Source: Fragum whitleyi | Taxonomy: Eukaryota; Mollusca; Bivalvia; Cardiida; Cardiidae | Assembly (NCBI GenBank): GCA_948146395.1 | Contig: OX411544.1 | Coordinates: 91,822,901 to 91,886,900 of the forward strand | Direction of reading: 5' to 3' | DNA length: 64,000 nt | Part shown: positions 26,433 through 62,000 of the stretch, piece by piece | Layout: each line of letters starts with the position of its first letter | Position numbering within the stretch: the first letter of the stretch is position 1 | The notes under the pieces: generated by a model | Seen by the model: the letters and a program-made list of their open reading frames with translations, nothing else | Told to the model about the DNA's origin: nothing | The model's database searches: none | Position numbers and translations under genes: made by a program

Positions 26433-26636
26433 TATTTTGGCGACGAGGATAATTTCTTTCCAAAACATGGGGAGAAAAGGATAACGTTGGACAGTAGTAT
26501 CTGGACAATATGACTTATAGTCACTTTCAGTAAATTTGTGGTGAAATTGGATTTAAATCCGTAAAAGAGAAATTGACTATTGGTTTCTCAAAAGCCGGAT
26601 TTTTATAAATTGTTCTTGGATTAAATTCGATTAGCA

Positions 26637-27071: not shown

Positions 27072-28405
27072 TCCCTCCACGAAGTGGAGGGGGATATACT
27101 GGAAATGCCATGACTGTCCGTCCGTCTGTCCNNNNNNNNNNNNNNNNNNNNNNNNNNNNNNNNNNNNNNNNNNNNNNNNNNNNNNNNNNNNNNNNNNNNN
27201 NNNNNNNNNNNNNNNNNNNNNNNNNNNNNNNNNNNNNNNNNNNNNNNNNNNNNNNNNNNNNNNNNNNNNNNNNNNNNNNNNNNNNNNNNNNNNNNNNNNN
27301 NNNNNNNNNNNNNNNNNNNNNNNNNNNNNNNGTCCGGAGCATTACTCCTACACTTTTGCACTTACTGATGCTTTAATATAATGTTTATAAGGATATGAAG
27401 TTGTGCATGTGCAATTTTCATGTTCCTACTATAATTGGTAGCGGACTTACTTCCCCTTGAACTTGTAATTTTTACTGAAATTTATGTTGTCAGGAGCATT
27501 TCTCCTACAGTTTTACAAGTATTGATCTGAATTTTTTATATAGTGTTTGTGAGCTTATGAAATTGTGCATGTGCAATTTTCATATCCCTACTGGTATTTG
27601 TTGCTGAATTATCTCCCCTTGAAATGCTAATTTTTACTAAATTTTAACTGAATTATTGTTATCTGGAGCATTACTTCTACAGTTTTGCACATGCTGATCT
27701 TAAATATTTATGCAATGTTTATGAGTAAATAAAGTTGTGCATATGCAATTTTCATGTCCCGACTAGTATTTGTTTTGGAATTATCTCCCCTTGAACTTGT
27801 ATATTTCTACTATATTATTGTTATCTAGAGCGTTTCTCCTACAGTTTTGCACATACTGATCTATAATGTTTAAATACTATTTTTAAGCATATGAAGTTGT
27901 GTGAGTGTAATTTTCATGCCCTTACTCTCATTGGTTACAGAATTATCTTCCATTGAACTTGAAATTTATACTAAATTTTTGTTGTACCATCAATACTTCT
28001 ATAGTATTGCATATTCTGAATCCAATTTTACTTACAGTAATCCATCCAATAAATATCAAGCTATGTATATGCAATGTTCATGACTTTAGTAAGACTGGTT
28101 CCTGAATGATCTCCCCATTAATTTTGTGATTTTTTTTGCTAATTAATTACTAACAATCAGAAGCTAATGGGTTTAGGACACTGATAACTACACAACATGT
28201 TTCCAGACATAAATTGTCCATATTGTCTACATTGGGTAAAAAAATTATCTCCCTGGAATTCTTTAATTGTGGCGATATTTCTTATTCTGAGTACATTGTC
28301 TTTTGAGCAACTCTTTTATGATATAAACTGCTGTCTACAATGAAGACCTTTTTTGTGACAAGGTGCTGGTGGGGGGTATGATCACGTTTAGTGATAGCTC
28401 TTGTT
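27072..28405 (+). mobile_element. Hairpin/GTCC element interrupting gag, contains assembly gap
   Basis: The head hairpin is CCCTCCACGAAGTGGAGGGG, followed by GTCCGTCCGTCTGTCC and then Ns. After the gap, about six 150-165 bp monomers with CGGAGCATTACTCCTACA, GTTGTGCATGTGCAATTTTC and ATTATCTCCCCTTGAA follow. It ends GGTGGGGGGTATGATCACG plus TTTAGTGATAGCTCTTGTT, nearly the same end as the element at 3,779-5,234. Confidence 0.8.
27132..27331. other. Assembly gap, 200 N
   Basis: Exactly 200 undetermined bases inside the tandem-repeat element. The round number suggests a placeholder rather than a measured length. Confidence 0.99.
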
Positions 28406-37300: not shown

Positions 37301-40300
37301 AAGATAATACAAAGGTAATTTGTAGTTAATGTTTTGTTTAAAATTATAACTGCCTTAAAAGAAGTTGGCATATTTATTAACATTTTTGACAAATGCTACA
37401 CAAAATGACTTAGAAAATGCCTTGGTAAGAGAAGCTAATTAATCCATTGCTCTATAGAGCAATGGTTTCTCTTCTTATGGCATTTTCCTTTTGTTGAGTT
37501 TTTACTCGAGGAGAGCGAGAGCGCCTGGTTTAAATACATTTGGGAGCTTCATTTCTGTATGACAGTGTTAAATCCTTTACCTCATATTTTTTACTCTTCA
37601 ATCAAGAGATTTGTGGGAATCTGTGTAAAGCATGGTTTCATATTTGTTTGTAAATATTTTATATTTTTACATACACTTTTGTCGACCAAAACCAGCTTAA
37701 AAGGATACGTAGCCTATTAGCTTTCATATATACTCAATATATTATTTAGAAATAATATGAAAAAGGCAAAGCCTCTGAACGATCGCAGTCCTCAACTATT
37801 CATTGTCACTTAACAAACTTTAATTCAACAAGACGTGTAAGAGACGGGTAATGCTCCCTGAACAAGTGCTTGTCATCAAGACCCCCTTTCCAATAACAAA
37901 GTTTTGTGTGAATGAATTACAAATAGCATATGGTCTATATCATTTGATTCATATCTGGAATGTGAAAATTCACCCAATTCTGACCAGTACTTTAGAAGAT
38001 TTCAGAGAAAATTTATTTTTTTTACATTAGGTCCCTTTTTGTGACACACCTATAAATTGAGAAATAGTGAAAAGGATATTTGGGAAAATATTCCAAGAAG
38101 TAATTGCATAAAGTATCAATCAATTTTGCCCAGGGGTTGTAGAAAAACGGCTTTGGACAAACATAAACTGCTTTTCACAGTACTAAAGCCCTTTTTCTGT
38201 GACACAGGCATACATTGATTCTTGAGTAAATGAATTTCAAATAGAATCGTTTGATTTTAAACTTCAATTTGAAACATTATGTCCATGACTAGGACCATAA
38301 GATAAAATTAGATAAAAACTGGCACATTGTCAAACTTTTAAAGTCAAGGAATGTTATATTGGTGTCATTTTTCATACAAAACTTGCCTGTCATACATCAT
38401 GTTTTAACATAATGCAGCCCTGGACTTAAAAATTCAATAATTGAGGAAGTAGGTCAAGGTCAAAGGCTTACCTTGAAGCCAGATGAGAAGCAGTCTTTTC
38501 TCAACTCTTGCTTATCAGAAGTTTAGCTCCAGTATTGATGATTAACAAGTTAATTTTATCTGGTTAATTTCATCTGTGTTACATGAAAATGCCAACCAGG
38601 AAAAGGAAAAACCCCCTAGGATGACAAGATAAGTTGTGGGGGTATCCTGTTTCAAAAGATTAACACATATCTTGTTGAATTTAAATTTTGTTTCAAACTT
38701 ATTGCCAATTAGTAAGACATTTCAACCAGTGTCGCTCAATTTTGTTTTATATTAATTAAATAGAAAGCATGAAAATGTGGGCTATGATCAGACTGCACAT
38801 CTGTGAAGACTGATCTTAGTCTATACTGCCTGTCAACACTATGGCTACAACAGGATTATTATGTCGGGAACAGTATTAGAACCGTTTAATGAGGATCTTG
38901 CCCGGATTGAAGAAAATAGACAATGCAAACAATAAACAAGCAACACAAATTGGCGCATAAAAATATGTCAAGGTAATTTAAAGAGTCCTTTCAACAGATA
39001 AACTACTAATGATATGAACTAGAAAGCCTGACTGGGATTCGAACCCAGGTCTCCTCAGGTGTTAACTGAGACGCTTTGACCACTAAGCAATCAGGCTGCA
39101 CTCTAGCATAAAATCATCAGAATTTGCCTGTTAAAAGTGTTCACTGAATGATTTCTAAATTCGAAAAGATTTTGTGACATTTTCAATGCATAAGCTTTTG
39201 TTTATTGGACAAAACCTGTTTGCTTTTAAGTTGCTATTATCCCGTTGTTGTGCGGTCTGGTCACTGGTAAAGTTTAGGGGGTCACATTCAGAGCAAAATA
39301 TCTGAAAGGAATTTTCCTAGATATACCACCTGCCTGTGGTCTCTTCCAGTACATGTAATTTAATTGCTCCATTTTATCAAAGTTTACCACTTTTTCCCAA
39401 TATTTCTGACCCGGTCCCAAAACTTTGCAAAAAAAAGAAAAACTGAAATAAGAGACTAAAAATGTCAAAAGAAGAATTGGTTAATGTTGGTTAAAGCCCA
39501 TCTGTTTTCATAAATTTACATGACATGCTAATCTGGGCAATAATTATAACCTGTACCTGTATCTCCGTTTTTCTTAACAGGTTATCATATGAAAAATATA
39601 TACTACTCAAAACAAGTTAAGGGTCAAAACTTTGAACCTCTGGTAAATTCCTTTATCATATCAATATGACCAATGAGCTACAGCATGATGATTTTTAACA
39701 TGCTTTCTACACGATTACAAAAGATGGTAGCGTTAGAAAAATGATTTACCAAAGATAAATAACGTTAATGCGACGCACCCCCATAAATGCAAACTACAAA
39801 CCCTCATTTGAGGAAGTGGATCAGATTAAAGTTTGGTTTAATATTCAAATCTGTTATTGGTCTTTGGAGTGAAAGTCATGTGCGTCTTTTTTCATGAAAA
39901 AACTTTTTATAGGCATCGAAGTTATCCCATTTAACGGCTAAAACGTGAAGAACGTTAGCGTCAGGACGTGTACTCTACTGGATTATTCTAATGCCGCTAT
40001 CAGCTTAAAATCTAAGTGCAAAGTTTCACGAATCCCATTAGTAAACTGAAAATACGAAAACTAACCATACGGAAGCTCATAGTAGTGTTAGCAGATGTCA
40101 TTTTAGCAGCTCAACGATTGGGTGGCAAGTGTTTTGTCACGATAATAGAGGCTTTAAAGTCCAAATATGGTCACATCATGTCTCTTTGAATTCCTGAGAA
40201 TCTGGATTGACTCATTAGAAGTTAAAAATACGGCTCTGAAGTAGATTTAGCCAATCGGAGTGCTATGTTTGAGGTGTACAGAGTATTGCTGCCTTTCGAC

Positions 40301-43300
40301 AAAGGGTCAATTTTAGGTGACTATAGAAATCTTGCATTTGGACATTTTGATGAGAAATTTGACAGTAAAGTGTCTTGTAAACTGATAAACCAAGTTGTGT
40401 CACTAAATCGTAAAAAATATTGTTGAATAAAGATAATGTTGATAAGTTTGTGTAAGGTAAAATTTGCTTTATTCCTGTATTATTTATTGCGCTTTTCTTA
40501 AGAATACCAACATCATTTGTCAAGTCAGTTAACTTAACTGTGCTTCATTTATGTCTAACACACAGAAAGCATCAATGTTTTGAACTCCTACAATCTTTGG
40601 AAAAGAAACAGAAACCGGGGATTAAAAGATGACATTTTATTGTTTGACCCTTAAATTGTTTTGAGTAGTATATATTAATTGAGCATGCGCGTGACAATTC
40701 CAACAATTTAAATCTAACTAAGATCTGCTTGCACAGTAAGCAAATGCCGTGAACAACATGATAAGGGTTAAAAAACACCCTTATAGCTAGGAAGTCCATA
40801 GAGCACTTGACTTCAAAACCTAAAGGTTAAGGGCTAACAAACAAACAACTTAGCATTATTGTCTTTCGGATGAGATGTTAAACCAATACCCTGTGCAATA
40901 TACACAAAGCACGTTCAAGAACCAGTCTGGTCCAGGCGGAGCTTTCATCATCCTGAATCCTTGCAGTTTCCCTAGCTAAAGTGACAAAGTATCCTATATG
41001 AAATTGGCTTACTTTCATTTATGATAAGGCAAAACTTTTGGTATCAAAACTGATGACAGCTTCAAAATGATGCAATTTGACCATCCTTGAGGAAAAGACT
41101 TTGAAATATCAGCAGAATTTGACTGCCTACACATTTTATTAGACAGTAAAATCTTATTCCATGTATAAAAATTGAAGAAAAGTTCCATTATCCATCAAAA
41201 CACCAAACATTGTTTCCTTGAAAGGTTAATGTTGTTGTTGTTTTTGACCCGTGATAGACTTGGTCTTGAGTCAACTCGGTATAACTTGGATCGACCAAAC
41301 CGGTATAACGACTGAAAAAAATATGCAAAACCTACTACTGATTATCAGTTTATCCCGTTTTATCCTGACAAGAAATGCCCCACCCACACAGACAACCTTG
41401 TCAATAGCGATTACAATATCAAATGCAGTATTAGGAACGGGTTATACATGACGTATTTTAAATAAACGAGAGTACATACGAAATGTATGAAAAAATGGAT
41501 CAACCGTACTTTGAATGTCGAGAATTAACAATAAACGAAGCATTTTTTTTTACTTGAAGTTTTATGTTTGTATATTTTGACATCTTGTTTCAAAATGCTA
41601 TTTACAATTTGTATATTGGCGTTTTTAGGAACTGTGTTCAATTTTGGTTTTTGGAAAAATTGCACGCAAATGCGCGATGCTGACATCTGTCATTTGGACA
41701 TTTTATTCATCATTAAATATCTTGGAGGAGAATTCGTTATTAACAAGGAAAATTAACGAATTATATCGAAGCGAAGTAATGGCTGCCATCATTGGATTTC
41801 AAAATATTCATTGTTCAATATGTAAATTGAGTGAAGTTTTTTTTACTATATCACATTATTTCACATGTAACGAATAAAAGATCCCGATAAATAAAATAAC
41901 TGGTATATCAGTTATTGAATAAATAGTTTGCAGTTGTAATGATAAGTATTGAAAGCATTTTTTCGTATTTCATGGAGTTATGAAATATTGGGTAATTTTC
42001 AACCGATTCTAACATGCATCTTCTTGCAAATTAATTGAAAAATACCCAACATTTTATAACAAATGCACTCCGTTCTGATTTTGATTGCAGGCAAAAGTAA
42101 AGTCAAAAAAGCAAATGAATGCACATGACTTCAACAGGAAAGGTAAGTCTAATTCAATAAAGATGCACTGTTGCATTCGTGTACATTTTCTACCACTATA
42201 TACATGCATTCCTTGTGATGTTATTATCTCATAATGTATACTTCTACGGGAATCGTGCCGCCGTCATAGCGCAGTTGGTAGCGCGTCGGACTATCATTCA
42301 AAGGGTCCCGGGTTCGATCCCCGACGGCGGCAATACTCTTTCCGACATTTGTCTCTCACCAATGGGTAGATAATCGTAAACCTATGTGGGATAGCAGCTG
42401 GAGGCTAGGAAAGGGTGTAATGGTAGTACATGTGCGAGAAATACTAGGAATCCATTGTTAGGTGCTCCAGCCGCCGCGATATGACTGAAAGATTGTTAAA
42501 AGCGGCGTTAAACCCCATTCAAACAAACAAATAAATCTACGGGAATCGTATAGGTAACCGAAACGATTGAACAATCGGCAATTACCCAACTCCTGGTTCC
42601 TGTTCTACATAGATGTTCATAATTTATTTATTAGTAAATTTCCATATATAAAGATCATTTTGTTAGTTTAAATGAGATGTGTCCCATCACAATAATTATG
42701 TTTAAGTCATTGCAGTTTGCTTTTTCTATGGGTTTTACGGATTTGAGACATGTATATCGTTGTGGGGAAATTTTAATATTTTATACAGCTAAAGTTAAGC
42801 ATTGACATCTGTATGCTGGACGCTTGTTCTAATTTTATTTTGTTGGTAGGCAATTGGCAAAGGCATTTTCAGACATAAATTATGTGTGCTTTTTACAAAA
42901 ATAGAAGGTTTTTATCACCAGAAAGGATAATGTGATGTGTCAATATTCAAAAAGATTAGACAATATATAGATGTTGGAATACACTTTAAAAAAGAATTAT
43001 CTAAGTGCTCTTTTGTTCCGAATTAAGATTGTTATTTTAAGCTGGTAGCATATACTTACAATAAAATCCATTGTATTGAAATGTAGTGTTGTTTTTTTTT
43101 TCAGAACAAAGTCCTGGACTAGTTGATGGATATGAAACAAAACTGAAAGTATGTGTATGTCAAAGAATTAACGAAAATGTTGTATTTATAATAAACTTCA
43201 CATATTCCGTTAAATATTCTATTCATGAACATTATAACTTTTAAACTGACTAATAATCCGTGAATAAATATAATTGAAAAGTATGTGTTTGCTCAGATTT

Positions 43301-46300
43301 TGAAAATATTTGTTGTAAAAATAATACTTTTTCGACATCATGGGTCAAATCGGGATGGTTATTTTCCTTTCACACTTACCTAAACTAAGTTGTACCAGTT
43401 TCGCGTGCTCTCATTTAAAGTCATTACAAATTTTATTCCACGCCGTCGAAAGGCATAACAAATAAATATGTTCGTCAAGACCACGTCTAGCACCAATGAC
43501 CACATGGTCAGTGGTTGGAAAAATTGCAAATGGAACAACCCAAACGGATGGCAACACTATCTGAAAATACTTACTTGTCTAACAAAAAGCCTTAAATGAC
43601 GGAAACAAAGGAAGTAACTTATTTGTCGTTTCAGGCATGTTTGGTTTCACTTCATCGACTGTCCACAGATGAGCCAAAAAGTAAGTTGTGTCTTTGAATC
43701 ACTTCCCCCCTACCTGCCTCCCTCCGTCCCCCTCTCTCTCTCTCTCTCTCTATCTGTTTCTATCTCTATTCTCTCTCCCCATTCTCTCTTTCCCTCTCTC
43801 TATCTGTCTCTCTATCTCCCTCCTCTCTCTGTCTCTCTCTGTCTCTCTATATCCCTTCTCCCTCTGTCTCTTCTCTGTCTCTCTTTCTCACACTCTCTCT
43901 CTGCCTCTCTTTCTCTCTCTCCGTCAATCTCTCTTTTACACACTTTTCTCATCTGTGTCCCTGTCAGTCTGACGATTGTGGAAAATTAAAGTCCAAACAG
44001 CTTTTTGAGACAACAGTTAATAAATGTGATAAGTACTCAGGAAGCAATGATGTAATAATTTACATTTTCTTTACTTAAGAGAGTACTCGTCTATTGAATA
44101 AGTATTACTTTCATTTAAAGAAGAAATAAGCAAGGTGTAAAGGGTACAATGTCAGCACACGATTTAATTGATCAGTTACAAACAAAAATGACAGAAAGTG
44201 AAACAATACTCTCATTTCAGATAAATTCTCAATTAAAACGTAATTAATTACACTTTTTATTAAACATGAATACAATTTTATTATCAAAATTGCAATAACA
44301 TGACACAAATTAACGACATTAAGGTAGGACCTGTGTAATGAGAATCACCTATTTCTGTATTACTGAATTTATCAAAAACTTGATAACTGTTGAAAAACAA
44401 TCGTTGAAATAGTTTAACCGTGGCACATTTGATGATTTCACATTCTCAAAATTATTATTTGTGAAATTTAATCACTCTTATTGTATTGATGAATTATTTG
44501 GAATTACCTCCCCGTACTAAAATAGTATGAATTCCTTCAAGTTATTGCACAAAATAAAAAAAAAACTTGTAAAATTTCCACGGTTCAAAATATTGAAAAC
44601 TTTAAATGTTGCATACTCTATAAATTATTTATTTGAATTTATTTCTAATAAAATTTGTCTGAAACCCATTACACAGGTCATACCTTAAAATATTGTTAAA
44701 TGTTTAAATACCAGAAGTAATCCTAAACAGTAAATCTAAATAAAGGCAATTAATGTGCATTCACGCGGTAAAATTTAGGTTTTTGGTACAATATTGATCA
44801 ACAATTTCATGGTTCATTTTATACTCTTAGGACATCCCATTTTCACTTCTTTCTGCATTGATTTTCATTCAAAAATAAACAATGAATGACTTATTGTCGA
44901 TATAATATGTTCAACATAGTGTTCCTGAAATGGATAGTAATGTAACATGTTATATTTACAAGAACAATCTATTTATAACTTTGATAAACGTTATTCATGC
45001 TTTTTAGTCCCCTACCGGCAAAGCCGATGGGGACGTTAGGTTTGCACTCCGGACCTCTTTCTAAAACGTAATAGAGTTACAGATTAAGTTTGAGTTTCGT
45101 TCTCGTCCATTGATTTTGGACCAAGATACAGTGATAGACTTAGAACATTGATCATAAAATTCAGTTTTCCGAACTTTTTTTCCCAGTCGCTGTCAAATAT
45201 TGAACTGAGTTTTAGTGTGTGAGTCCGTAATTGTGAGTCAGATATCAAGTTTGAGTTTTGTTCTGGTTCGTTAATTTTGGACCAAGATACTGTGCTGAAC
45301 TTGAAACATTGATCACAATTCAACTGTTTTAAAGGTTTATTTTTTACTTTTTGCTTCATATATCTCTAGGGGTATACACGTGTATGAATAAAGCCGACAG
45401 AGGACTCGGTATATGCAATATTGACAGGCAACATAAATTACAACATACAAAAATTACCTAGATATTCAGTATTGAACTTTATACTTTGCAGACAATGTTC
45501 CTGATTTGATTCAATCCATATTGATTCTTGATTGTGTTTGGAATCTTTATCAAATATACCTTCATAACTTTATTAACATATGGATATTGATCTAGGATCG
45601 GTAGTTATTTACCAGACACTATCAAACTTTGTATACCCTGGTCATCTTTGCAAAAATATTGGTTGGGTCTTTCAGCAAAACAAACGACCACAGACGCTAT
45701 CAACATTACTCCCGAATCAGGTTTAAAACAAAGCGATGGTGGTATAAATGGGATGACTGTAGAAAAGCAAACACTTGGTTGGTATATTGTTTTTTTCTAT
45801 CAATGTAAAGGTTGGCATTATTGTATGTTGGCGGTATTTAATTAAACCATTAAGAGATAATCAGATAACAAAAATCAAATTGGTATATGCCACGTCTAGA
45901 TGAAAATCTAATCAATTCTTTCTGTCTGTCTTTCAGTTGCCAACGCCAATGCATGTCAAAGTCAAATTATAGTACAATCTATTCGGTTTGAAATTGGTCA
46001 TTTTATTTGCAAAAATAAAATATTATTAGAAGTCCACCTTTTCCCTGACGGGACTTCAAATTGAAAAAAAAAAATTGGAAGATGCATAGGCGCAATATCA
46101 TAAAGAATTCATATAACTATGGAGTCTCATCTAATTTGACCAAGGACCTGTGTAGACATCCTTTCTGACGGAAAGACGAAGCGGCAGCTATATGTTAATG
46201 ACAAATGTTTATAGGTTGTTTTGAGTAGATCCTCATTCAAATTTATCGAAGGACTGAATGATTATCATATATGGAAATAAAAGACTCTAAAAGCCAGTTT

Positions 46301-49300
46301 TTCATTCGATCAAATTTCGTTCACAAATTTAAAAAAAAAACCGCTCACCCAAAGATCATTTCTGTCAAATTTTGTTGAATTGCATCAAAACTTTTCTGAG
46401 AAGAAGACCTTCAAATGTTTTACAATATACTGAAATTAGCTCTGCCTATTAAAGTCATGTTTTTCATAAATTCTTTGAATTATCTGATAAAGGGTCACGT
46501 AAGGATCATTTCTCCGAACTTTGGTTGAAATTCATCCTGTAGATTCTGGGGAAACAAAGAAAAGGTTTACGGATGCACGAAGGACAGGACAGGACAGACA
46601 TTCTGTCATGACAATAGCCCGCTGACTTTCGGCTAGTGGAGCTAAAAACAATATTCAATATTCAGTTTCTAAATTGATAGAAAAAGGCTGAGACTTAAAA
46701 GAGTTGAAACTGAGCATCATTCTATTTTTGCTCGAAGGTAGTTCGTACGATGATCAAAGTTTTCATGACAATACTGTACAATTTCAGGGAAACTATGTAG
46801 GAAAAGAATAAACTATGTGTTCGCTTTAGTTAGAATATAAAAGTAAATAAAAATCATTGTTTATCAAGCGACTAGTTATCAACAGAACACGTCATAGCAG
46901 ATGTCATCAGTCACATATTTTCGCTAGTCTATTTCCGCTTTGGAAGTTTTTCAGCTCGTACATTTATTATTGAAGACCTGTCGAACATAATCAGTTCATC
47001 GGGTACCTAAAGACTACGCTTGAGTTTGACAGTTCTATTCATTTTGCAATTACCTACACCTCCATCCGAATCAGGCTAGAAATATAGGAGGAGATGCGCT
47101 CATAAGAAATGGATGGACACACATAACGCCGTTACCTTAACGGGTCCAGTGACACGCCTAGGTATGACTAATTTGTAACCGTTTCAATCCCAACAACATC
47201 AACAGTGTTTAGGTAAAATTAATAATCCTCCGGTAGACGGACTTCAGTGGAGTCCGTCATCGATTCGGATTTTTACTCTAATTCTATCGAAATCTAGTCG
47301 CTAACCACATGATCGGCTCTATATTTCATCAAATAAATGTATAAAGTTTATAAATGCCTTATTTTAAGAATAAAATGACCACTTGTTACTTTCATTTTTA
47401 AAAGTTGATCTGGGCATGTGCGTGTCACCTGACCGCCAATTCTGCATTTCTTTCGGGATGGCAAAATGCTTGCAAACGTTTTGTCATCCAGAACGCAGTA
47501 CGCTAGGTCGATATTCTTTGTTAAAGGGTGGATATACCGTCCTTTCGCGTTGCCACAACATCGGCGATCCAATAGCTATATCAGTGAGTATTTGGATTTC
47601 GTATTCAACGAGTAGGACACTGATAAATACACACCGGTGAGGTTCTCTAGACAGTGGAGGAATACACCACAACACTAATTACAAAAACATCAAGTCATTT
47701 TAGCGTTTAGCTTTGTAACACCATATTTCTCAAATCTGGAAACATGGGTCGAACAGTTTAACTTCAGCCTGGTTGTATTTTATAATCATTTTCTTAAGTA
47801 ATGACCGAAGAGGGAAATTCAACCTAAATCGGACACTATATTTTGTGGCAGCAGTTTAGATGGACACTTCGACCCACAATTTTCAAAGCTCTTGACGGCT
47901 AGAGGCGAGGAATTTCCTGGCCTAATAAAAAAGAGAAACTCTTTGCTAAAATGGTGCCTTGAAATCCTTAATGGTTGTAATTATTTCGAAGATTTCCTTA
48001 TTCAATAATCGGTAAATAGATCTACTTTTTCAGCGACTTGAGGTGGCCTCCTAGGCCAACATTTTTTGACTGAAAGTAGATCCGTGAAGCGCTTTTGGTC
48101 GCTAAACGCAAGGAAATCTCTTGAAAGGGATTTCCTGGCCTAAGAATCAATTTGCATTTAAGCCTAAAAAAGCACATCATTTTTATACGCCGCCGGAGGC
48201 GGACGTATATTGGCGTCATCTTCTTCGTCTGTCCGTCCGTCCGTCCGTCCGTCCGTCCACTTTTCTTGTCAACGCAACTCCTCCTAAGTTTCTGGCTGGA
48301 TCTTCTTGAAACTTGCTCAGTGTTATCACCATAATTGGTAGATGTGCATGAAGGAAGGATTTTAAGGATCGTTGATTTTTGCCTGAGTTATGCCCCTTAA
48401 AAACTTACTCTCTAGGCCTTATTGAAATTGCAGCCTTGTCAACGCAACTCCTCCTAAGTTTCTGGCTGGATCTTAATGAAACTTGGTCAATGTTATCACC
48501 TCAATTGGTAGATGTGCATGAAGGAAGGATTTTAAGGATCGTTGATTTTTGTCTGAGTTATGCCCCTTAAAAACTTACTCTCTGGGCCTTATTGAAATTG
48601 CAGCCTTGTCAACGCAACTCCTCCTAAGTTTGTGGCTGGATCTTAATGAAACTTGGTCAATCTTATCACCTTAATTGGTAGATGTGCATGAAGTAAGGAT
48701 TTTATGGTTCAATGATTTTTGTCTGAGTTATGTCCCCTTGAAACTTAGTCTCTGGGGATTATTGAGATTTGCAGACTTGTGAATGCAACTCCTCCTAAGT
48801 TTTTGTCTTCATCTTAATGATTCTTGCTCAATGTCATCATCTTAATTGGTAGATGTGCATGGATTAAGGGTTTTATGGATCATTGATTTTTGCAAGAGTT
48901 ATGCCCCTTGACACTTAGTCTCTTGGGCTTATTGATATTGCAGCCTTGTGAACGCAACTCCTTCCAGGTTTTTGACTGGATATTTATAAAACCTTCTTGT
49001 GAAAGCAATTTTTCCAGGGTTTTACTGGATATTTATAAATCATTGTCAATGTCATTTTTGTGTCTCAAGTTTTTTTATAAATGAATCTGTATGAAACTTG
49101 GTCAATGACATGACTATAATGGGTAGACATGCATTTATTTTTTTTTTACTCAGCCATTTTGATGTTTCCATCAACCCACAGTCATTTGCGTGAAACAGCA
49201 GCAAAGTGGCGGCGTATATTGTGACGATGGCACTCTTGTTCAAATAAAATTTCATGCAAGGTGTACCTTATGTGGTAATCGGTACTATTCAATATTTCAG

Positions 49301-52300
49301 CATGTCCAAAGGAGCAGTGTCCGTCAGAAACACAATTTCAAAGCGACCAAGATCCACAGGAAGAACATTTCATAGGTAATCAACGGAAGAAAAATTTACT
49401 AAAGACACTAGAAACATGAATTCGAAAATACATTAAATTCTGAGATATGCAATTTGCAGACAATGTTCCTATTTTGATTCAAATCATATTGAGTATTGAA
49501 TGTGTGTGAAATTCTTTAACAAATATGTCGTCATTTCTTTTGTAATACATGAATATTGGACTTGTGTTGATAGTGTTTTGCCAGACATTATTATATTTTA
49601 TATACCCTGTTTTTGTTTATATATATGAGCAGCGTCGCGACAAAACCCGCCTTATTTCATCTGCGTGAAGAATCGTCCAGGATCAGCCTATGCAGTCCGC
49701 ACAGGCTAATCCGAGACGGCATTTTCCGCTTTTAGATGCTTTTCTGTTTAAAGAAGCCTTACTTTAGCAGTAAATCTAGTCGAAGCGGAAAGTGCTGTGC
49801 CAGACTGCACAGGCTAATCTGGGACGACACTTTACGCAGATGCGTGTGTGTGAAATATATGCAAAAACGTTATGTTTGGTCTTTCAGCAACGCCAGTCAC
49901 TCAAGACACTTTCGATGTTGGTACAGATGGGATGCCTATAGAACAGCAACAAGTTGGTAGGTATATTCAATGTTTCTGTTAAGGAAATTGTAATCATTAT
50001 GACGGTAATTAATGAAAGTAGTTGACTAAATAATCAGGTATTTGAGATGATATTTTTGTCGTCATTTTTCATAGGTAAGAAACCCGGAAGGTGAACGATG
50101 AAGGATGTGTGTTAAAATCCAAAGTCATGTGACTTTTAACTGACACGTGAAAGTTGTTTTCTGATTAATCATTTTTAAAGTTACCCATGGTATATCAAAT
50201 AAAGATATTGCATATTACTTATAAGATGACTTTCAAAGGATTAAGCATCAAATATATCGTCATTTCTTTTGTAATACATGAATATTGGACTGGTGTTGGT
50301 AGTGTTTTGCTAGACATTATTATATTTTATATACCCTGTTTTTGTTTAAAAAATATGAGCAGCGTCGCGACAAAACCCGCCTTATTTCATCTGCGTGAGG
50401 TATCGTCCAGGATTAGCATATGCAGTCCGCACAGGCTAATCCGAGACGGCACTTTCCGCTTTTAGATGCTTTTCTGTTTAAAGAAGCCTTACTCTAGCAG
50501 TAAATCCAGTCGAAGCGGAAAGTGCCCTCTCGGACAGCACAGGCTAATCTCGGACGACTTTTAACGCAGATGCGTGTGTGTGAAATATATGCACAAACGT
50601 TATGTTTGGTCTTTCAGCAACGCCAGTCACTCAAGACACTTTCGATGTTGGTACAAATGGGATGCCTATAGAACGGCAACAAGTTGGTTGGTATATTCAA
50701 TGTTTCTGTTAAGGAAATTGTAATCATTATGACGGTAATTAATGAAAGTAGTTGAATAGATAATCAGGTATTTGACATATTTTTGTCGTCATTTTCATAG
50801 GTAAGAAACCCGAAAGATGAACGATGAAGGATGTGTGTTCAAATCCAAAGTCTTGTGACTTTTTACTGACACGTGAAAGTTGTTTTCTGATTAATTAGCT
50901 ATAGAATTACCGGTGGTGTATCAAATAAAAATATTGCATATTACTAATAAGATGACTTTCAAAGGATTAAGCATCAGATATATCGTCATTACTTTTGTAA
51001 TACATGAATATTGGTCTTGTCTTGGTAATGTTTTGCCAGACATTATTATATTTTACATACCCTGCTTTGTTTATAAATATGAGCAGCGTCGCGACAAAAC
51101 CCGCCTTATTTCATCTGCGTAAAGTATCGTGGTCCGCACAGGCTAATCCGAGACGGCACTTTCCGCTTTTAGATGCTTTTCTGTTTAAAGAAGCCTTACT
51201 CTAGCAGTAAATCCAGTCGAAGCGGAAAGTGCTGTCTATTAGCACAGGCTAATCTGGGACGACACTTTACGCAGATGCGTGTGTGTTAAATACATGCAAA
51301 AGCGTTATGTTTGGTCTTTCAGCAACGACAGTCACTCAAGACACTTTAGATGTTGGTACAAATGGGATGCCTATAGAACAGCAACAAGTTGGTACGTATA
51401 TTGAATGTTTCTGTTAAGGAAATTGTAATCATTATGACGGTAATTAATGAAAGTAGTTGAATAGATAATCAGGTATTTGACATGATATTTTTGTCGTCAT
51501 TTTTCATAGGTAAGAAACCCGGAGGGTGTACGATGAAGGATGTGTGTTAAAATCCAAAGTCATGTGACTTTTAACTGACACGTGAAAGTTGTTTTTTGAT
51601 TCATCATTTTTAAAATTACCCGTTGTGTATCAAATAAAGATATTCCATATTACTTATAAGATGACTTTCAAAGGATTAAGAACATTACGCGAACAGCCAC
51701 TGCTTGATTGAGTAATATTTCTTCTGTACGCTAGGCCTTCTAGTGCCTAAACCTTAAGTTTAGCTGAATGTAGTTTGAATGTATAATCTGAACGAAATCT
51801 GAGTTATGACAAGATCATAGTTTCGTCGCCGCCAACTGTAAATTTCTTAAGGTTCATGAATGCAATTTACGTTAAGTTTACCCCACTCTCTTAATTTCTT
51901 ACAGGGGCAAACATTTGCTTAGCTTAATTAACTTCATCTCTGGTAAGCAGGAAATTTTAAAATCATCTGCTTCTTAAGAATATTTCGAGCAAATACCACA
52001 ATTTGCTAACTTTATTAACATTTCAGTATTTCCCTCTCCTGCAGAAAAAGAGGAGTGTCCCTCGGATGAACAAATTCAAAGCGAGCAAGATTCACAGGAA
52101 GAATATTTCATAGGTAACAAAAATACATTTAGTACTCTAGTAGAATGAACTCCCACATTAAATCCGTTCTTCAATGTGCGTAGAACGTTTCAGTCAAATG
52201 TATCTTCATTACTTTTATTACACATGTATATTGGACCAGGATCGGTTATGATGTTCCGCATATTATATCCCACAAAGGGAGATCATATAGTCGCCTCTTT

Positions 52301-52784
52301 GTCCGCTCGTCCTTCATAACTTTGTCCGGAGCATAACTCAAAAACTATAAGAAGCATCAGCACTAAACTGCATAGGTTGATAGATCTTGTTGAGGAGACG
52401 TGCATTGGTTAAGAACCATAACCCATCTTTATAATTTAGGATTTATTGCCCTTTGTTTATATTTTCTGTGACAAAAATTTATTCGGGGAGCATAATCCGT
52501 TTCCGACGGTCCTTGTTGTTTATATTTTGCAACAAATTGTGTTTGGTATTTCAGCAACGCCTGTCACTCAAGATACTATCAACGTTGGTACAAATAGGAT
52601 GCCTATAGAACAGCAACCAGTTGGTTGGTGTATTGGATGTTTCTGTTATGGAAATTGTCAGCCTTATCCCTTGATTACGGTATTAAATGAAAAATTAATA
52701 AAGTAAATCAGAAAAGGAAAATTCAAATTGCAAACTGATAAATCAAATCTAATCTACTCTGACTTAAATTGTTCTTTCTTCCAG

Positions 52785-52827
<43 letters not shown>

Positions 52828-52936
52828 CACACTCACTCCACTCACTCACTCACACACTCACTCACACTCTCTCTTACTCATTAACTCACTCACTATCTCT
52901 CTCACATTCACTAACTCATTCACTCACTCACACTCT

Positions 52937-52976
<40 letters not shown>

Positions 52977-55958
52977 TCTGTCTGTCTCTATCTCTGTCTC
53001 TCTCTCTGTCTCTTTCTCTCTCTCTTCCTTCGACTGGTGCTGGGGAATATTCAGAAAGTACAATTTCTTCCAAAGAAACGACGCCAATTCAATAAATATA
53101 TTCTAAGAAAGGATGAAACAAACATTTTCCACCTCTTTTAAGGAAATTGTTATCATTATCACGGTAATTAATGAAAGTAGTTGAATAGATAATCAGGTAT
53201 TTGATATCATATTTTTGTCGTCATTTTTCATAGGTTAGAAACCCGGAAGGTGAACGATGAAGGATGTGTGTTAAAATCCAAAGTCATGTGACTTTTAATT
53301 GACATGTGAAAGTTGTTTTCTGATTAATAATTTTTAAAATTACCCATGGTATATCAAATAAAGATATTGCATATTACTTATAAGATGACTTTCAAAGGAT
53401 TAAGCATCAAATATATCGTCATTTCTTTTGTAATACATGAATATTGGACTGGTGTTGGTAGTGTTTTGCTAGACATTATTATATTTTATATACCCTATTT
53501 TTGTTTAAAAAATATGAGCAGCGTCGCGACAAAACCCGCCTTATTTCATTTGCGTGAAGTATCGTCCAGGATTAGCCTATGCACTCCGCACAGGCTAATC
53601 CGAGACGGCACTTTCCGCTTTTAGATGTTTTTCTGTTTAAAGAAGCCTTACTCTAGCAGTAAATCTAGTCGAAGCGGAAAGTGCCGTCTGGGACAGCACA
53701 GGCTAATCTGAGACGACACTTTACGCAGATGCGTGTGTGTGAAATATATGCACAAACGTTATGTTTGGTCTTTCAGCAACGCCAGTCACTCAAGACACTT
53801 TCGATGTTGGTACAAATGGGATGCCTATAGAACAGCAACAAGTTGGTTGGTATATGCAATGTTTCTGTAAAGGAAATTGTAATCATTATGACGGTAATTA
53901 ATGAAAGTAGTTGAATAGATAATCAGGTATTTGACATATTTTTGTCGTCATTTTTCATAGGTAAGAAACCCGGAAGGTGAACGATGAAGGATGTGTGTTC
54001 AAATCCAAAGTCATGTGACTTTTAACTGACACGTGAAAGTTGTTTTCTGATTAATTAGTTTTAGAATTACCGGTGGTATATCAAATAAAGGTATAACATA
54101 TTACTAATAAGATGACTTTCAAAGGATTTAGCATCAGATATATCGTCAGTACTTTTGTAATACATGAATATTGGTCTTGTGCTGGTAGTCTTTTGCCAGA
54201 CATTATATTTTATATATACCCTGCTTTTGTTTATAAATATGAGAAGCGTCGCGACAAAACCCGCCTTATTTCATCTGCGTAAAGTATCTTGGTCCGCACA
54301 GGCTAATCCGAGACGGCACTTTCCGCTTTTAGATGCTTTTCTGTTTAAAGAAGCCTTACTCTAGTAGTAAATCCAGTCTAAGCGGAAAGTGCTGTCCATT
54401 AGCACAGGCTAATCTGGGACGACACTTTACGCAGATGCGTGTGTGTGAAATATATGCAATAGCGTTATGTTTGGTCTTTCAGCAACGACAGTCACTCAAG
54501 ACACTTTAGATGTTGGTACAAATGGGATGCCTATAGAACAGCAACAAGTTGGTACGTATATTGAATGTTTCTGTTAAGGAAATTGTAATTATAATGACGG
54601 TAATTAATGAAAGTAGTTGAATAGATAATCAGGTATTTGACATGATATTTTTGTCGTCATTTTTCATAGGTAAGAAACCCGGAAGGTGAACGATGAAGGA
54701 TGTGTGTTAAAATCCAAAGTCATTTGACTTTTAATTGATACGTGAAAGTTGTTTTCTGATTAATCATTTTTAAAATTACCCGTTGTGTATCAAATAAAGA
54801 TATTGCATATTACTTATAAGATGACTTTCAAAGGATTAAGAACATTACGCGAACAGCCACTGCTTGATTGAGTAATATTTCTTCTGTACGCTAGGCCTTC
54901 TAGTGCCTTAACCTTAAGTTTAGCTGAATGTAGTTTGAATGTATAATCTGAACGAAATCTGAGTTATGACAAGATCATAGTTTCGTCGCCACCAACTGTA
55001 AATAATTAAGGTTCATGAATGCAATTTACGTTAAGTTTACCCCACTCTCTTAATTTCTTACAGGGGCAAACATTTGCTTAGCTTAATTAACTTCATCACT
55101 TGTAAGCAGGAAATTTTAAAAGCATCTGCTTCTTAAGAATATTTCGAGCAAATACCACAATTTGCTAACTTTATCAACATTTCAGTATTTCCCTCTCCTG
55201 CAGAAAAAGAGGAGTGTCCCTCAGATGAACAAATTCAAAGCGAGTAAGATTCACAGGAAGAATATTTCATAGGTAACAAAAATACATTTAGTACTCTAGT
55301 AGCATGAACCCCCACATTAAATCCGTTCTTCAATGTGCGTAGAACGTTTCAGTCAAATATATCTTCATTACTTTTATTACACATGTATATTGGACCAGGA
55401 TCGGTTATGATGTTCCACATATTATATCCCACAAAGGGAGATCATATAGTCGCCCCTTTGTCCGCCCGTCCTTCATAACTTTGCCCGGAGCATAACTCAA
55501 AAACTATAAGAGGCATCAGCACTAAACTTCATAGGTAGATAGATCTTGTTGAGGAGACATGCATTGGTTAAGAACCATAACCCATCTTTATAATTTAGGA
55601 GTTATTGCCCTTTGTGTATATTTTCTGTGACAAAAATTTATTCGGGGAGCTTAATCCGTTTCCGACGGTCCTTGATGTTTATATTTTGCAACAAATTGTG
55701 TTTGGTATTTCAGCAACGCCTGTCACTCAAGATACTATCAACGTTGGTACAAATAGGATGCCAATAGAACAGCAACCAGTTGGTTGGTATATTGAATGTT
55801 TCTGTTATGGAAATTGTTAGCCTTTTCCCTTGATTACGGTATTAAATGAAAAAATTAATAAAGTAAATCAGAAAAGGAAAATTCAAATTGCAAAGTGATA
55901 AATCAAACATTTATATAAAAATCTAATCTATTCTGACTTAAATTGTTCTTTCTTCCAG

Positions 55959-56004
<46 letters not shown>

Positions 56005-59000
56005 AGACACTCACTCCACTCACACACCCACTCACTCACACTCTCTCTTACTCATTAACTCACTCCCTATCTCTCTCACATTCACTAACTCATTCACTCA
56101 CTCACACTCTCCCTCTCTCTCTCTCTCTCTGTCTGTCTGTCTCTATCTCTCCTATCTCTGTCTCTCTCTCTGTCTCTTTCTCTCTCTCTCTCTTCCTTCG
56201 ACTGGTGCTGGGGAATATTCAGAAATTACAATTTCTTCCAAAGGAACGACGCCAATTCAATAAATATATTCTAAGAAACGATGAAACAAACATTTTCCAT
56301 TTCTTCATATCTCATAGAATCCACATTAATGTGCTCAATTTCTTAAGTGGTACATCCAATTTCCTTAGTCGCCATGGCTAAAGCATTTCCGAGCAAATCA
56401 TTGTAAACATCTTTTAAGCCTTTCACACATATATACGCATTTTCACGCATGTTTTCAGAGAGGCTTTGGAAAACATTTTGAAAAAAGGAGAACTGAGCCA
56501 TTTCTCCTTTTCTCAAAATGTTTTTCAGTGTCAGAAAAGGTACATGATATATTGTTCCAATTACTGTTTCAGGACTTGATTTACCTGTTATTTGTAAAAG
56601 TCTGAAAATGCCTGTCTGATAAAGGGTTAAAGTCAGGAGCACCCGGCTACGTTATATTTGAAATATGTATCTCTACTGAGGGTACTACATGTTTTAAAAC
56701 TACATGCCCGTGAGTCATACAAAACTATAAATAAACTTAACATTTATAAAAAAGTGTTTTGACATTAAATCTAGTAAATTCAAGAGAGAAAATGGAGTCA
56801 CAAATAAAACAATTCGAACATGATGCATATTTATAAAATGGTTGTATCTAATATTTCAGTAAGCTCCATCGACAGTGAATACTGTCAGCAGTCACCTGAA
56901 GCGTCATTTGAAACAAGTGATCCCTACTGCAACCAAATTAACATTGATTTAGAAGAGACTGATTCGCTTAACATTGGTCAGTACTATTAGTTTTTATAAG
57001 TTCACATTCCTTGCATTTGCTTATATCTTTTGCCTTGGCCTATATCACAGCATTGGCATGCAAAGTTGGAAAAAGAAGAATTTTGTGATGATTGTTTGTT
57101 TGAATGGGGTTTAACGCCGCTTTTTAACAATCTTTCAGTCATATCGCGGTGGCTGGAGCACCTAACAATGGATTCCTGATTTTTCGCACCTGTACTACCA
57201 TTACAGCCTTTCCTTGTTTCCAACTACTATCCCTCATAGGTTCACGATTATCTACCCATTGGTGAGAGACAAATGTCGGAAAGTCGATTGCCGCCATCGG
57301 GGATCGAACCCGGGACCCTTTGAATGATAGTCCGACGCGCTACCAACTGCGCTATGACGGCGGCTAAGTTTGTGATGAACGCAATGCGACATTAATTATT
57401 ATCATGAAAAATATGAATGTCTTTTGAATAAATAAAATGAGTAAATAAATCATAGGTAACAGAAACATAAATAATCAAGTCAATCCGAAATAGATAAATA
57501 AATAAACAAACAAACCATTAAACAAGCAACCGTTTCTGTTTCACAGTTATTTTAATATTCCTTTCATTCAAAATGATAGTAAGTTAGATCGGGATTTAAC
57601 GAAGCTTTTAAACATATCTCAGATCATTTCGCAGTGATGAAGCACCAGTCATGCTTTTCTTGCCTATTCATGTCAGTACTTACACTATTTTATTTTCTTA
57701 CCCTGCCAATGACTTCATACTCATATATTAAGAGGTGAGGGCAAATGTTTGCCGGAAAGAAGTTCAGTTCGGCCAAGAAATGAACCCGCGACCTACAAAT
57801 CACAGGTGCGGTGCGCTCACCAACTGCGCTACCCCGGCTTGGACAAAGTTTGAACTGAGAGAGATAGTGAGCGATATTGATGTGTTGGTTTCCATTCAAG
57901 CAAGTCTGTGCTTTATTCTAATAACTATAATGCAAATAATCAAACGAATACTTAAAATATATATTAACTAAAAAACAAAAAAATAAATGAAAAATCAAAC
58001 GTTATCTTTTACATGAGCAATATTTTTTCATTCCACAAAGGTTCCCCAAGCCGTAAAGTCTAAACTATGCGGCAACACACAGGAAAGCCTTAGGCCTATA
58101 TTCAAAGTAAGGTGATTAAGGGTACAATGACAGTCCACGAATAAATGACCAGTGAATTATAAAATAAAGAGACGGAAAGAAATGAATGAATAGATCAGTG
58201 AAAGTTGTCAAGATTTATTCGCTGTTAAATAATGAACTTGAACGTAATTTCTATTCTCCAAATTACATGTAACTCTTTTCCAAAATGTTATTCAGATCAT
58301 TATAATGTTATTATACATCATTTAACGCAGTAATGACGTTGGAATAGTATGTACCATTAAGTCAGAGGAAGGTTTCTGGACAATACTTGAATCTAAACAT
58401 CATTTGTTTTGATGCAAAACTGGTGTACACTTTCATGTGTCCTTTTTACTTGAGGCTACGTCACGCATAACATATTCTCTTTTCCCTGTCGGGCTAGCTC
58501 AGTTGGTAGAGCGTCGGCTTTACAATCCTAAGAAACCGGAGGGTTTCAAGGGTCGTGTGTTCGAATCCTGGCAGCGGCAGCTTCTTTCCGGTGAATTTTC
58601 ACCTCTCACTGCCGGTTCAAGTGAGAAAGCAGTCAGAGGCTTGGAATGAAGTAGTGTGAGTACCGGTATGGGTAAGCCAGGAAAACACTGTAGACCGCCG
58701 CGATATAACCTCAGTTGTTGAAAGCGGCGTTAAACCCCACTCAATCAATCAATTGTCCTTCCTCAGGTTTGATGCTGCACTGACTTTCCTTTAAAACTAA
58801 TAGTTAGCACGTATATTTCAGATATACATGTAAATTTCTCATTGAAGAATTCGTTTAATTTATCTGTTACCACGTCCATTACAGTAAATTAAATTTCATG
58901 CCAGGTGTACCTCATGTGTAATCCTTACTATTTAATACTTCAGCATGTCCTAAGGAGCAGTGTCCGTCAGAAACACAAATCCAAAGCGGCCAAGGTCCAC

Positions 59001-62000
59001 AGGAAGAATATTTCATAGGTAATCAACGGAAGAAAAATTTACTTAATACTCTAGTAACATGAACTCCAACAGTTTTCATACATTACATTCTTAGATATGC
59101 AGTATTGCACTTTGCAGACATTGTTCCTATTTTGATTCAAATCAAACTGAGTATTGAATATGTGTGAAACTCTTTATCATTACTTTTGTAATACATAAAT
59201 ATTGGACTGGTGTTGGTAGTGTTTTGCCAGACATTATTATATTTTATATACCCTGTTTTTGTTTTTATATATATAATTGTGTGTGTGTGTGTGTGCGTGC
59301 GTGTTTGTGTGTGTGTGTGAAATATATGCAAAAACGTTATGTTTGGTCTTTCAGCAACGTCAGTCACTCAAGACACTTTCGATGTTGGTACAAATGGAAT
59401 GCCTATAGAACAGCAACACATTGGATGGTAGTTTTTTTCGATGTAAATACTATCTATAGTGCACAGACGTTTTTGACATACACTCTTTTCATTCTTCATT
59501 ATTTCTTTCAGACAACAACAATTTACCGGAAGGATCATGTTCAAGAAGATCTGGAAGTAGTTTGCAGGGTGAGAAATGCTTATTGACCAATCCAATGTTG
59601 GGTAGAAATATACCATTTCAACATTTACCTGAGCTGAGGCTGATTCCTTTCTTTTATACGGAAATATATGAAAATCAAGACATAGGGGATGTCCGTTCGT
59701 ACGTCCGTCACATTCTAAGTATTTTTTAGAAACTATGAGGGCTATTAACTTGAAACCTCACACATGTATTCGGGTGAGGGAGGTCGTGGATTCGAGTCCC
59801 GATCGGATCATAACAAAGACTTTCCGAAAAATGGTAGTATTTGTGTCTCTCCTTGGCGCTCATGATTATTGGGTTTAGCATTATGGCTGGTTCGTTAGTA
59901 TCAGGATAAATTGACTGACCGAGTTCAGTCCGTCGTGTATCAGTGCTTTACACTTGGCACGTTAAAGAACCAGGGGGCTCTATTGTTGAAGGGGTGGGAC
60001 AAAACTTGGCTCCCGTGTACTCTCTGGGACGTCCATTAGCCATTGATAGCAAAACATCGACGTAACCAAACAAACAAACAAGTATTTGGGGTATACCTTC
60101 TGCCAGGCCAAGTTCTTTAAATTTTTGGCCCCTACTGAAAATGAAACGGTTTTTGCACGGGGTCGAAATTTGGTTCTGCCCCTGGGGTCACAAGTTTGTA
60201 CATAGGAACATGTAGTAAGATAGTAAAAATGCGGTTTTTGCACGGGGGTGAAATTTGGTCCCGCCCCTGGGATCACAAGTTTGTACATAGGCATATGTAG
60301 TAATGCGATTTTCATAACTCTTAGCAGGAATTATCCTTGGGTGAAACTCTTCCGAAATAGCTTAAAGACTTATGATCTGTTGACAAAAATGCCTTTCGCG
60401 GCATCACAAAATGGGGAAAAGCTACCCTAACATTGAAGCCCTTTTATTCACTAACCCTAAAGCCTAGGATTACCAAATGTGATGTAGCATCATCTTTTTG
60501 GTCTCTACCAAATATGTAACGGTTCCTCTGGCCCGGAGGTCAAATTCGCCCACTCTCCCTCGGGAGTCATAAATTTTTACATAAGCATATGTAGTATAAA
60601 GGTAAACTAGAGGCGCTTGAGCGGCTGTATTGCTCCATAGGCCTGAAAAGATCGATTAAGGGAGAACAGCAGCATTTATTTTCAACAAGGGAAGCAACTC
60701 AAATGCACAAATAATGAGTTAGCATGATTTTTTCCCAAAATTTCCACTATATGGAAATTATTCCCACTCGTGAAAAACTCTTTTTATGGAAATAAGCTCC
60801 GCCCATTAAAGCCATATTTTTTATTATCAAATCCAAATTCTTTGAAGGAATCTGAAAAAGGGCACCCATAGATGATTTCTGTAAAATTTGGTTAAATTCT
60901 ATCCCATAGATTCTAAGAAAAAAATTCAAGGTTTTATCATATATGGAAATAAGCTACGCCCATTAAAGCCATGTTTTTCACCCGATTCAAATTCTTTGAA
61001 GGAATCTGAAAAAGGGTCACCCATAGATCATTTCTGTAAAATTTATTTGAATTCTATCCAATAGATCTTGAGAAGATTTTTGAAGGTTTTACCATATATG
61101 GAAATCAGCTCCGCCCATAAAAGCCGTTTTTCATCCGATCCAAATTCTTTGAAGGAATCTGATAAAAGGTCACCCAAAGATTATTTCTGTAAAATTTGTT
61201 TGAATTCTATCCAATAGATTCTGAGAAGAAGATTATTGAAAGTTTTGCCATATATGGAAATTAGCTCCACCAATTAAAGCCATGTTTTTCACCCGATCAA
61301 AAATCTTTGAAGAAAACTGATAAAGGTTCACCCAAGGATCATTTGTGTAAAATTTGGTTGAATTCTATCCAATAGATTCTGAGAAGAAGAATTTTGAAGG
61401 TTTTTTCATATATGGAAATAGTTTTGCCCATTAAAGCCGTTTTTCACCCGATCCAAATTCTTTGAAGGAATCCGATATAGGGTCACCCAAAGATCATTTC
61501 TGTAAAATTTGGTTGAATTCTATCCAATAGATTCTGAGACGATGATTTTTTAAGGTTTTACCATATATGGAAATTAGCTCCGCCCATTAAAGTCATGTTT
61601 TCCACCCGATCAAAATTCTTTGAAGGAATCTGATAGAGGGTCACCCAAAGATCATTCCTGTGAAATTTGGTTGAAATTGGACCAGTAGATTCTGAGGAGA
61701 AGATTTTTTTAAAAAAAAAAGTTTACGGACGCACGGACGGACGGACGGACGCACGACAGACACTCCGCCATGACAATAGCCCCAGTGGCCTTCTGCCAGT
61801 GGAGCTAAAAATGAGACCTCTTAAACCACTGGTTAGATTTTCACCACGATTAACTTGAAACTTAACACATGTCAAGTTCGAATTTGCTTGTGATCCTGAC
61901 TTTTGGCTCTTTTCCTATCTACCTGTAACCACAACTGGCTTGAGATCAAACACCCCAAGGGCATGCAATGCTCTTGTTCTGATCATAACCAGGAATAAAG

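Follow-up and report, generated by a model that had tools for sequence, protein, structure and literature searches.

How does a gene come to carry a run of tiny exons, nearly all of them neutral to the reading frame, between a SET domain and a zinc-finger-like C terminus, and is such a run likely to work as a source of protein variants? We asked this of a 64,000-nucleotide (nt) stretch of the bivalve Fragum whitleyi (contig OX411544.1; C2:91822901-91886900 of the 1.22-Gb genome), hereafter the window, and also read the 20 kb to its right. The account that we favor, with a probability of roughly 0.6, is that the run would have formed by nested tandem duplication of linker exons in one member of a gene family that combines SET, linker, zinc knuckle, and tyrosine recombinase (YR) parts, that the window copy recently lost its function, and that its exon array is mostly a relic. 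The family is a multi-gene animal family predicted to encode a KMT5A-like SET domain, a flexible acidic linker rich in Gln and Thr, two zinc knuckles, and a YR domain.

A run of symmetric exons within one gene model

Derived from reading frame and splice signals in this single assembly, one gene model on the + strand comprises exons S1 to S6, a run of 16 exons, and a final exon, F2 (Table 1). In the translation of the window, the in-frame chain reads from S1 to F2, and its only stops inside the window are in B2 and F1. The exon order is S1-S6, A0, B0, A1, A2, A3, B1, A4, A5, A6, B2, A7, C, B3, A8, E, F1, F2, and these exons are presumably spliced together into one transcript. The modules encoded are a KMT5A-like SET domain, the short exons S4 to S6, the linker run, and two zinc knuckles with a YR domain, the last two sharing the single exon F2, which extends beyond the right edge of the window. 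The first-pass annotation, made from the letters of the window, had described a SET module, the run, and an exon F; the run is real, but the model is longer, with S1 to S6 upstream (34495-43680) and F resolved into two exons, F1 (with a TAG) and F2.

All 16 exons between S6, which ends in phase 1, and F2, which starts in phase 1 (A0-A8, B0-B3, C, E, and F1), are multiples of three with phase 1 at both ends, so that what had been annotated for nearly all exons holds for every one of them when joined to S6 and F2. Profile searches of the whole window on both strands found nine A copies (45676 to 59423), the number annotated; the B copies number four and span 49301 to 59018. The next-best matches have E values of 1.6 and 0.33. 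The B exons had been listed as three intact or nearly intact copies plus a broken one; four copies were indeed recovered, and B2 has an in-frame TAA. The single exon C was also recovered (117 nt, one copy), but no single exon answering to the annotated "D" could be identified within the interval. Joined together, the 12 linker exons other than B2, A8, E, and F1 encode a peptide of 295 residues with 15% Q, 14% T, and a net charge of -42.

A mechanical scan of 43681-62822 for acceptors at which a phase 1-1 exon ending in a fair donor begins returned 10, compared with a mean of 1.8 and at most 5 across 40 dinucleotide shuffles, and 24 at a lax donor threshold (shuffle mean, 8.8; maximum, 17), an excess that overstates the surprise because the A and B copies are not independent. 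Eight of the 10 acceptors lie at A or B exons (B1 counted twice, and one with a donor other than the model's), one belongs to E, and one is unrelated. Whole-genome DNA searches returned 8 matches for A1 and 2 for B0, all inside the window gene, at a sensitivity that does not reach diverged copies (the A1 search missed A0, and the B0 search missed B1 and B2). These results bear on the idea that A and B are intronic repeats that resemble exons by chance. While the lack of A or B matches in the four paralogue loci described below and in the relatives found speaks for it, we consider it highly improbable in view of the 10 candidate acceptors versus 1.8 in shuffles, the fit of every phase, the confinement of the DNA matches to this gene, and an exon divergence lower than that of the introns in one duplicated block.

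The GT signals had been described as mostly good. By contrast, five of the nine A exons carry a weak GTTGGT donor (score, -1.25; 81st percentile among GTs of the window), followed 4 bases later by a competing GT, and A8 has no GT at its phase-1 position. Donors of S1-S6, E, and F1 score 2.6-8.6; all scores come from an approximate weight table.

SET exons precede a zinc knuckle-YR exon at four paralogue loci

A protein search with F2 gave at least 17 matches. Five of them are long; one is the window gene itself, and the others mark four paralogue loci, PC2, PC7, PC3a, and PC3b. PC3a lies within C3:42490001-42518000 and PC3b within C3:35962001-35982000. These four were the paralogue loci examined, and SET matches near all of them were already visible in an earlier genome search. 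All four have the same order and strand: SET exons come first, and the zinc knuckle-YR exon follows, separated from the second SET exon by about 6.5 to 19.5 kb. S6 is recognizable in three (PC2, PC7, and PC3a) as a 46-nt phase 0-to-1 exon, and the zinc knuckle-YR stretch is open for 584 residues in PC2, 591 in PC3a, and 539 in PC3b and is frameshifted in PC7. Substitution counts indicate that the constant exons of the paralogues are under constraint. Between PC2 and PC7, the ratio of replacement to silent substitution rates (dN/dS) is 0.11 for S2 (4 silent, 2 replacement), 0.08 for S3 (7 silent, 2 replacement), and 0.14 for the zinc knuckle plus YR-N, cut before the PC7 frameshift (11 silent, 7 replacement), each from few differences, and YR-C has 3 silent and 0 replacement differences. 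The PC2/PC3a ratios, again from few differences, are 0.13 for S2 and 0.11 for S3.

For the exons of the run, a profile search of 94 kb at the four paralogue loci with A, B, C, E, and F1 gave one match, on the reverse strand and at an E value of 0.16, and we rejected the proposal that any of these exons is common to the four loci. PC3b shows another kind of event than the linker arrays, a 2.67-kb tandem duplication (C3:35967163-35972500), 99.7% identical, that bears an extra copy of the second SET exon; S3, which corresponds to that exon in the window, is not symmetric. Elsewhere, weaker YR matches cluster at C16:42245100-48755831, with separate SET matches on the same chromosome.

A KMT5A-like SET module and a recombinase-like domain with five invariant residues

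The SET domain had been annotated as KMT5A-like, and the PDB agrees: the 14 best-ranked sequences in a search with the SET region are all KMT5A, SETD8, or SET8 or are labeled "H4 lysine-20 specific" (E values, 1.8e-11 to 2.3e-10; the alignment starts at about query residue 50). KMT5A (SETD8), the closest SET among solved structures, shares YDYG with the window gene. It differs in that the window gene and its relatives have ND for NH, that the window SET is short by 14 residues, and that this SET is joined to a linker, zinc knuckles, and a YR domain. With the 14 residues gone and ND for NH, the window copy lacks a complete SET fold with the E-Y-x-G segment and the NH motif; PC2, PC7, and PC3a keep EYHGE but likewise have ND for NH. 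Two predicted proteins, P0009 (ENA) and P0010 (Pinctada imbricata FSP39_024330), combine SET, linker, and, by alignment, a zinc knuckle; unlike the window gene they end at the zinc knuckles, and in a tblastn search of the window they did not match the A or B exons.

The C terminus, annotated as zinc-finger-like, proved to have its zinc knuckles in F2, ahead of the YR domain. This order of zinc knuckles and YR is found in P0003 (sea urchin LOC115923643; 38% identical over the F2 region searched), P0004, and P0005, in none of which was a SET domain found. F2 also closely resembles P0002 (303 of 439 residues identical). The recombinase-like domain has the fold of a YR catalytic domain. Five residues, R251, K300, R374, H400, and Y409 in P0002 numbering, are invariant in all seven aligned YR relatives and have equivalents in the window copy; going by the spacing in XerD, we take them to fill the catalytic R/K/R/H/Y roles. 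The HxxR histidine is not conserved among the aligned relatives. A structure model of P0004 (predicted local distance difference test score, 60) had no structural match with an E value of ≤0.001, and viral contigs, searched with three different alignments, gave 169, 16, and 218 pattern matches with no relative among them.

A protein search with the whole model yielded one fish protein among 7995 scored candidates. Of the predicted proteins found, which carry pairs of modules only, none unites SET with YR. That SET and YR are united in one gene we infer from the gene order at five loci, from the SET with zinc knuckle in P0009 and P0010, and from the presence of zinc knuckle and YR in one exon.

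Nested duplications and a linker apparently under little constraint

The 3.16-kb segment with A2-A3-B1-A4 (49975-53137) is duplicated head to tail as the segment with A5-A6-B2-A7 (53134-56305). Tandem repeats of ~727 bp correspond to the A1, A2, and A3 units, at about 91% identity, while the B0 and B3 units match at 85% and A0 is the most diverged A copy. As read from these repeats, the run arose by nested tandem duplication, and many of the A and B copies are recent. An interspersed repeat of ~185 bp (49618-54399) occurs upstream of A1, A2, A3, A5, and A6 and again at 62110-62294; it may have helped unequal exchange.

In the process that we envisage, the phase 1 flanking introns would let linker exons be gained, lost, or skipped without shifting the frame. 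Unequal exchange in repeat-rich introns would add exon copies, few of which selection would remove, and the linker could lengthen with little constraint on its sequence, its length either drifting or being put to use. Among A1-A8 (A0 left out), there are 5 silent and 11 replacement differences, with 3.6 silent expected (P = 0.27), and the B copies differ by 4 silent and 10 replacement changes and one stop, with 2.4 silent expected (P = 0.22). An excess of silent change among the A copies, on which the first-pass annotation had made its proposal depend, is thus not significant, and neither is one among the B copies, which suggests that the amino acid sequence of the linker is at most weakly constrained.

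An unrelated linker array in PC3a

In PC3a, the interval from the S6-like exon to the zinc knuckle-YR exon holds, unexpectedly, an array of six tandem phase 1-1 exons (C3:42506046-42511242), unrelated in sequence to A and B and 156, 165, 165, 165, 165, and 153 nt long. All six are open, D1 when read from an alternative acceptor; five donors score 5.6 and one scores 2.6. A DNA search with one copy gave 6 matches in the genome, all in this array, at a sensitivity that missed the related exons of PC2 and PC7. A profile of the PC3a exons had no match in the window; with it, PC2 and PC7 each proved to have a single related exon, open from AG to GT. Five of the six copies (D1 left out) differ by 6 silent and 34 replacement changes, with 8.6 silent expected (P = 0.89). 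Given that the arrays of the window gene and PC3a are unrelated, linkers in this family would have grown at least twice by the copying of frame-neutral exons. The same process may still vary the linker length of PC3a, which looks intact where examined.

Damage in the window copy and its bearing on function

In alignment with P0009, P0010, PC2, PC7, and PC3a, S2 of the window copy lacks 14 residues around the E-Y-x-G segment. In F2, residues of the first zinc knuckle are missing, the second cysteine among them, and the second knuckle has another residue in place of its last cysteine. The S2 and F2 damage is absent from PC2 and PC3a. In-frame stops comprise a TAA in B2, a TAG in F1 (62997-62999), and, right of the window, a TGA at residue 494 of F2, which precedes the equivalents of R374, H400, and Y409, three of the five conserved YR residues. 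Splicing could omit B2, A8, and F1 without loss of frame but could not avoid the YR stop, which lies in the final exon. The window copy is probably broken, and because its constant modules are damaged, we read its array as mostly a relic of a recently lost function and not as a working isoform generator.

This reading bears on the suggestion of the first-pass annotation that the locus could generate many linker variants. Its frame logic holds, but its application to the window copy is weakened by the damaged SET, the damaged zinc knuckle, and the TGA in the YR part. Spelled out, A and B would be cassette exons mixed by alternative splicing, so that linkers of many different lengths could separate SET from zinc knuckle-YR. 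All 16 exons are symmetric, the weak and rival donors of the A exons could fit regulated splicing, the linker exons are less diverged than the introns in one block, and three lesions (the B2 stop, the A8 donor, and the F1 stop) fall in exons that can be skipped in frame. Yet the TGA sits in a final exon that cannot be skipped, SET and zinc knuckle have both suffered losses, and silent change is not in significant excess, so that we hold such a generator to be unlikely here, if far from negligible. The stronger claim that sequence alone demonstrates an A/B isoform system we rejected, given the silent counts, the weak donors, and the damaged constant exons.

Alternatively, the locus might make a short functional product, a protein of SET and linker that terminates with the F1 stop and has neither zinc knuckle nor recombinase. 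The exons from SET to E form an open frame once B2 and A8 are left out, and the F1 stop lies just 33 bases before the exon end; under the usual 50-base rule, a stop nearer than that to the exon end need not trigger mRNA decay. Such a protein would, on the other hand, have a SET without the 14 residues that include the E-Y-x-G segment, and F2 is still so near its relatives, as its identity to P0002 shows, that it looks as if it had been translated until recently. We therefore judge a short product very unlikely.

Several observations weigh against recent loss of function and a relic array. In a relative-rate comparison, the window YR exon has 31 changes versus 20 in P0002 (P = 0.16); the absence of a clear acceleration implies either that the loss was recent or that the gene is still partly constrained. 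The stops could be haplotype specific or assembly errors, one assembly having been seen. PC7 is frameshifted too, which means that the window copy is not the only damaged one, and PC3a, where S1, S4, and S5 were not located, looks intact only for the parts examined. Finally, exons differ at 4 of 294 positions and introns at 131 of 2857 in the 3.16-kb pair (P = 0.006), which hints at constraint on the linker exons; in four other unit pairs, exon and intron divergence did not differ significantly (P = 0.30-1.0).

It is tempting to speculate further that the lineage keeps chromatin-linked SET-linker-zinc knuckle-YR recombinases, with linkers repeatedly and independently lengthened by different phase 1-1 exons and selected for a variable reach between SET and recombinase, the window copy being recently broken and PC3a working; we regard this as quite unlikely.

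Table 1. Predicted exons and duplicated blocks of the window gene
Feature	Coordinates	Strand	Description	Basis
S1	34495..34594	+	First coding exon, ATG, ends in phase 1	In-frame chain, donor; weak PC7 match (E 0.009)
S2	36387..36507	+	First half of SET, without 14 residues that relatives have	PC2, PC7, and PC3a retain the segment
S3	37092..37314	+	Second half of SET; ND replaces NH, YDYG kept	PF00856; KMT5A chains, SET region best E 1.8e-11
S4	42091..42142	+	Short, phase 0 to 1	Splice signals and frame only
S5	43105..43148	+	Short, phase 1 to 0	Splice signals and frame only
S6	43635..43680	+	46 nt, phase 0 to 1	Equal length and phase, similar peptide in PC2, PC7, and PC3a
A0	45676..45777	+	102 nt, phase 1-1, weak donor	Profile match
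B0	49301..49375	+	75 nt, phase 1-1	Profile and DNA search match
A1	49888..49956	+	69 nt, phase 1-1	Profile and DNA search match
A2	50618..50686	+	69 nt, phase 1-1, weak donor	Profile match
A3	51323..51391	+	69 nt, phase 1-1	Profile match
B1	52045..52113	+	69 nt (or 87 nt from 52027), phase 1-1	Profile match
A4	52555..52623	+	69 nt, phase 1-1, weak donor	Profile match
A5	53777..53845	+	69 nt, phase 1-1, weak donor	Profile match
A6	54483..54551	+	69 nt, phase 1-1	Profile match
B2	55204..55272	+	Copy of B1 with in-frame TAA	Profile match
A7	55714..55782	+	69 nt, phase 1-1, weak donor	Profile match
C	56860..56976	+	117 nt, phase 1-1, single copy	Unmatched in the four paralogue loci
B3	58944..59018	+	75 nt, phase 1-1	Profile and DNA search match
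A8	59355..59423	+	69 nt; no GT at phase-1 donor position	Profile match
E	59512..59568	+	57 nt, phase 1-1	Frame and splice signals
F1	62823..63032	+	210 nt, phase 1-1, in-frame TAG	Frame and splice signals
F2	63163..64000	+	Zinc knuckles and first part of YR; continues right of the window, the YR part there being broken by an in-frame TGA	
3.16-kb tandem duplication, first copy	49975..53133	+	Holds A2, A3, B1, and A4	
3.16-kb tandem duplication, second copy	53134..56305	+	Holds A5, A6, B2, and A7	

Other features of the window

Two tRNA-Asp-like sequences, at 42260-42332 (+) and 57289-57361 (-), are probably parts of tRNA-derived short interspersed elements; a tRNA-Val-like sequence lies at 39024-39097. 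An open frame at 26625-27113 has a gag/PNMA-like match just below the Pfam cut-off (E 5.8e-05 for 26625-27044) and is followed by a 200-base run of N at 27132-27331.

Comparison with known systems and significance

In open-licence PMC papers we found no description of a SET-YR fusion or of a KMT5A-like bivalve gene of such layout, in line with the first-pass annotation, which knew of none. A study of the annelid chromatin toolkit (PMC12153100) reports three kmt5a paralogues for Capitella teleta, and an oyster paper on SNPs (PMC6740020) proved irrelevant. A proto-Helentron (PMC4067079) resembles the window family in bringing SET together with a mobile-element protein, but its SET is Clr4-like and in a separate reading frame, and the element is of the rolling-circle type. 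Crypton YR transposons and DUF3504 genes such as ZMYM2 and KCTD1 (PMC3212892) are likewise animal YR elements or genes, some fused to other domains. According to that paper DUF3504 is without most of the tetrad residues, whereas R, K, R, H, and Y are invariant in all seven aligned relatives here. The Pfam DUF3504 profile gave no match at E 0.1 in seven YR relatives (P0002-P0008). Dscam-type and other tandem exon duplications (PMC9013439; compare PMC1397879) place similar exons in tandem within a gene, as here, and the window run does consist of tandem homologous frame-neutral exons like those of a mutually exclusive or cassette array. It differs in that its exons sit in the linker of a probably broken gene.

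The window, its right flank, and the four paralogues connect a KMT5A-like SET, zinc knuckles, and a YR domain with conserved active-site residues, where the proteins found display only pairs of these modules. The amplification of different linker exons in two paralogues amounts to a small natural experiment on frame-neutral exons and the length of a disordered linker, in which splicing can be set against plain length, and the broken copy, set alongside apparently intact ones, serves as a control for the appearance of a functionless array.

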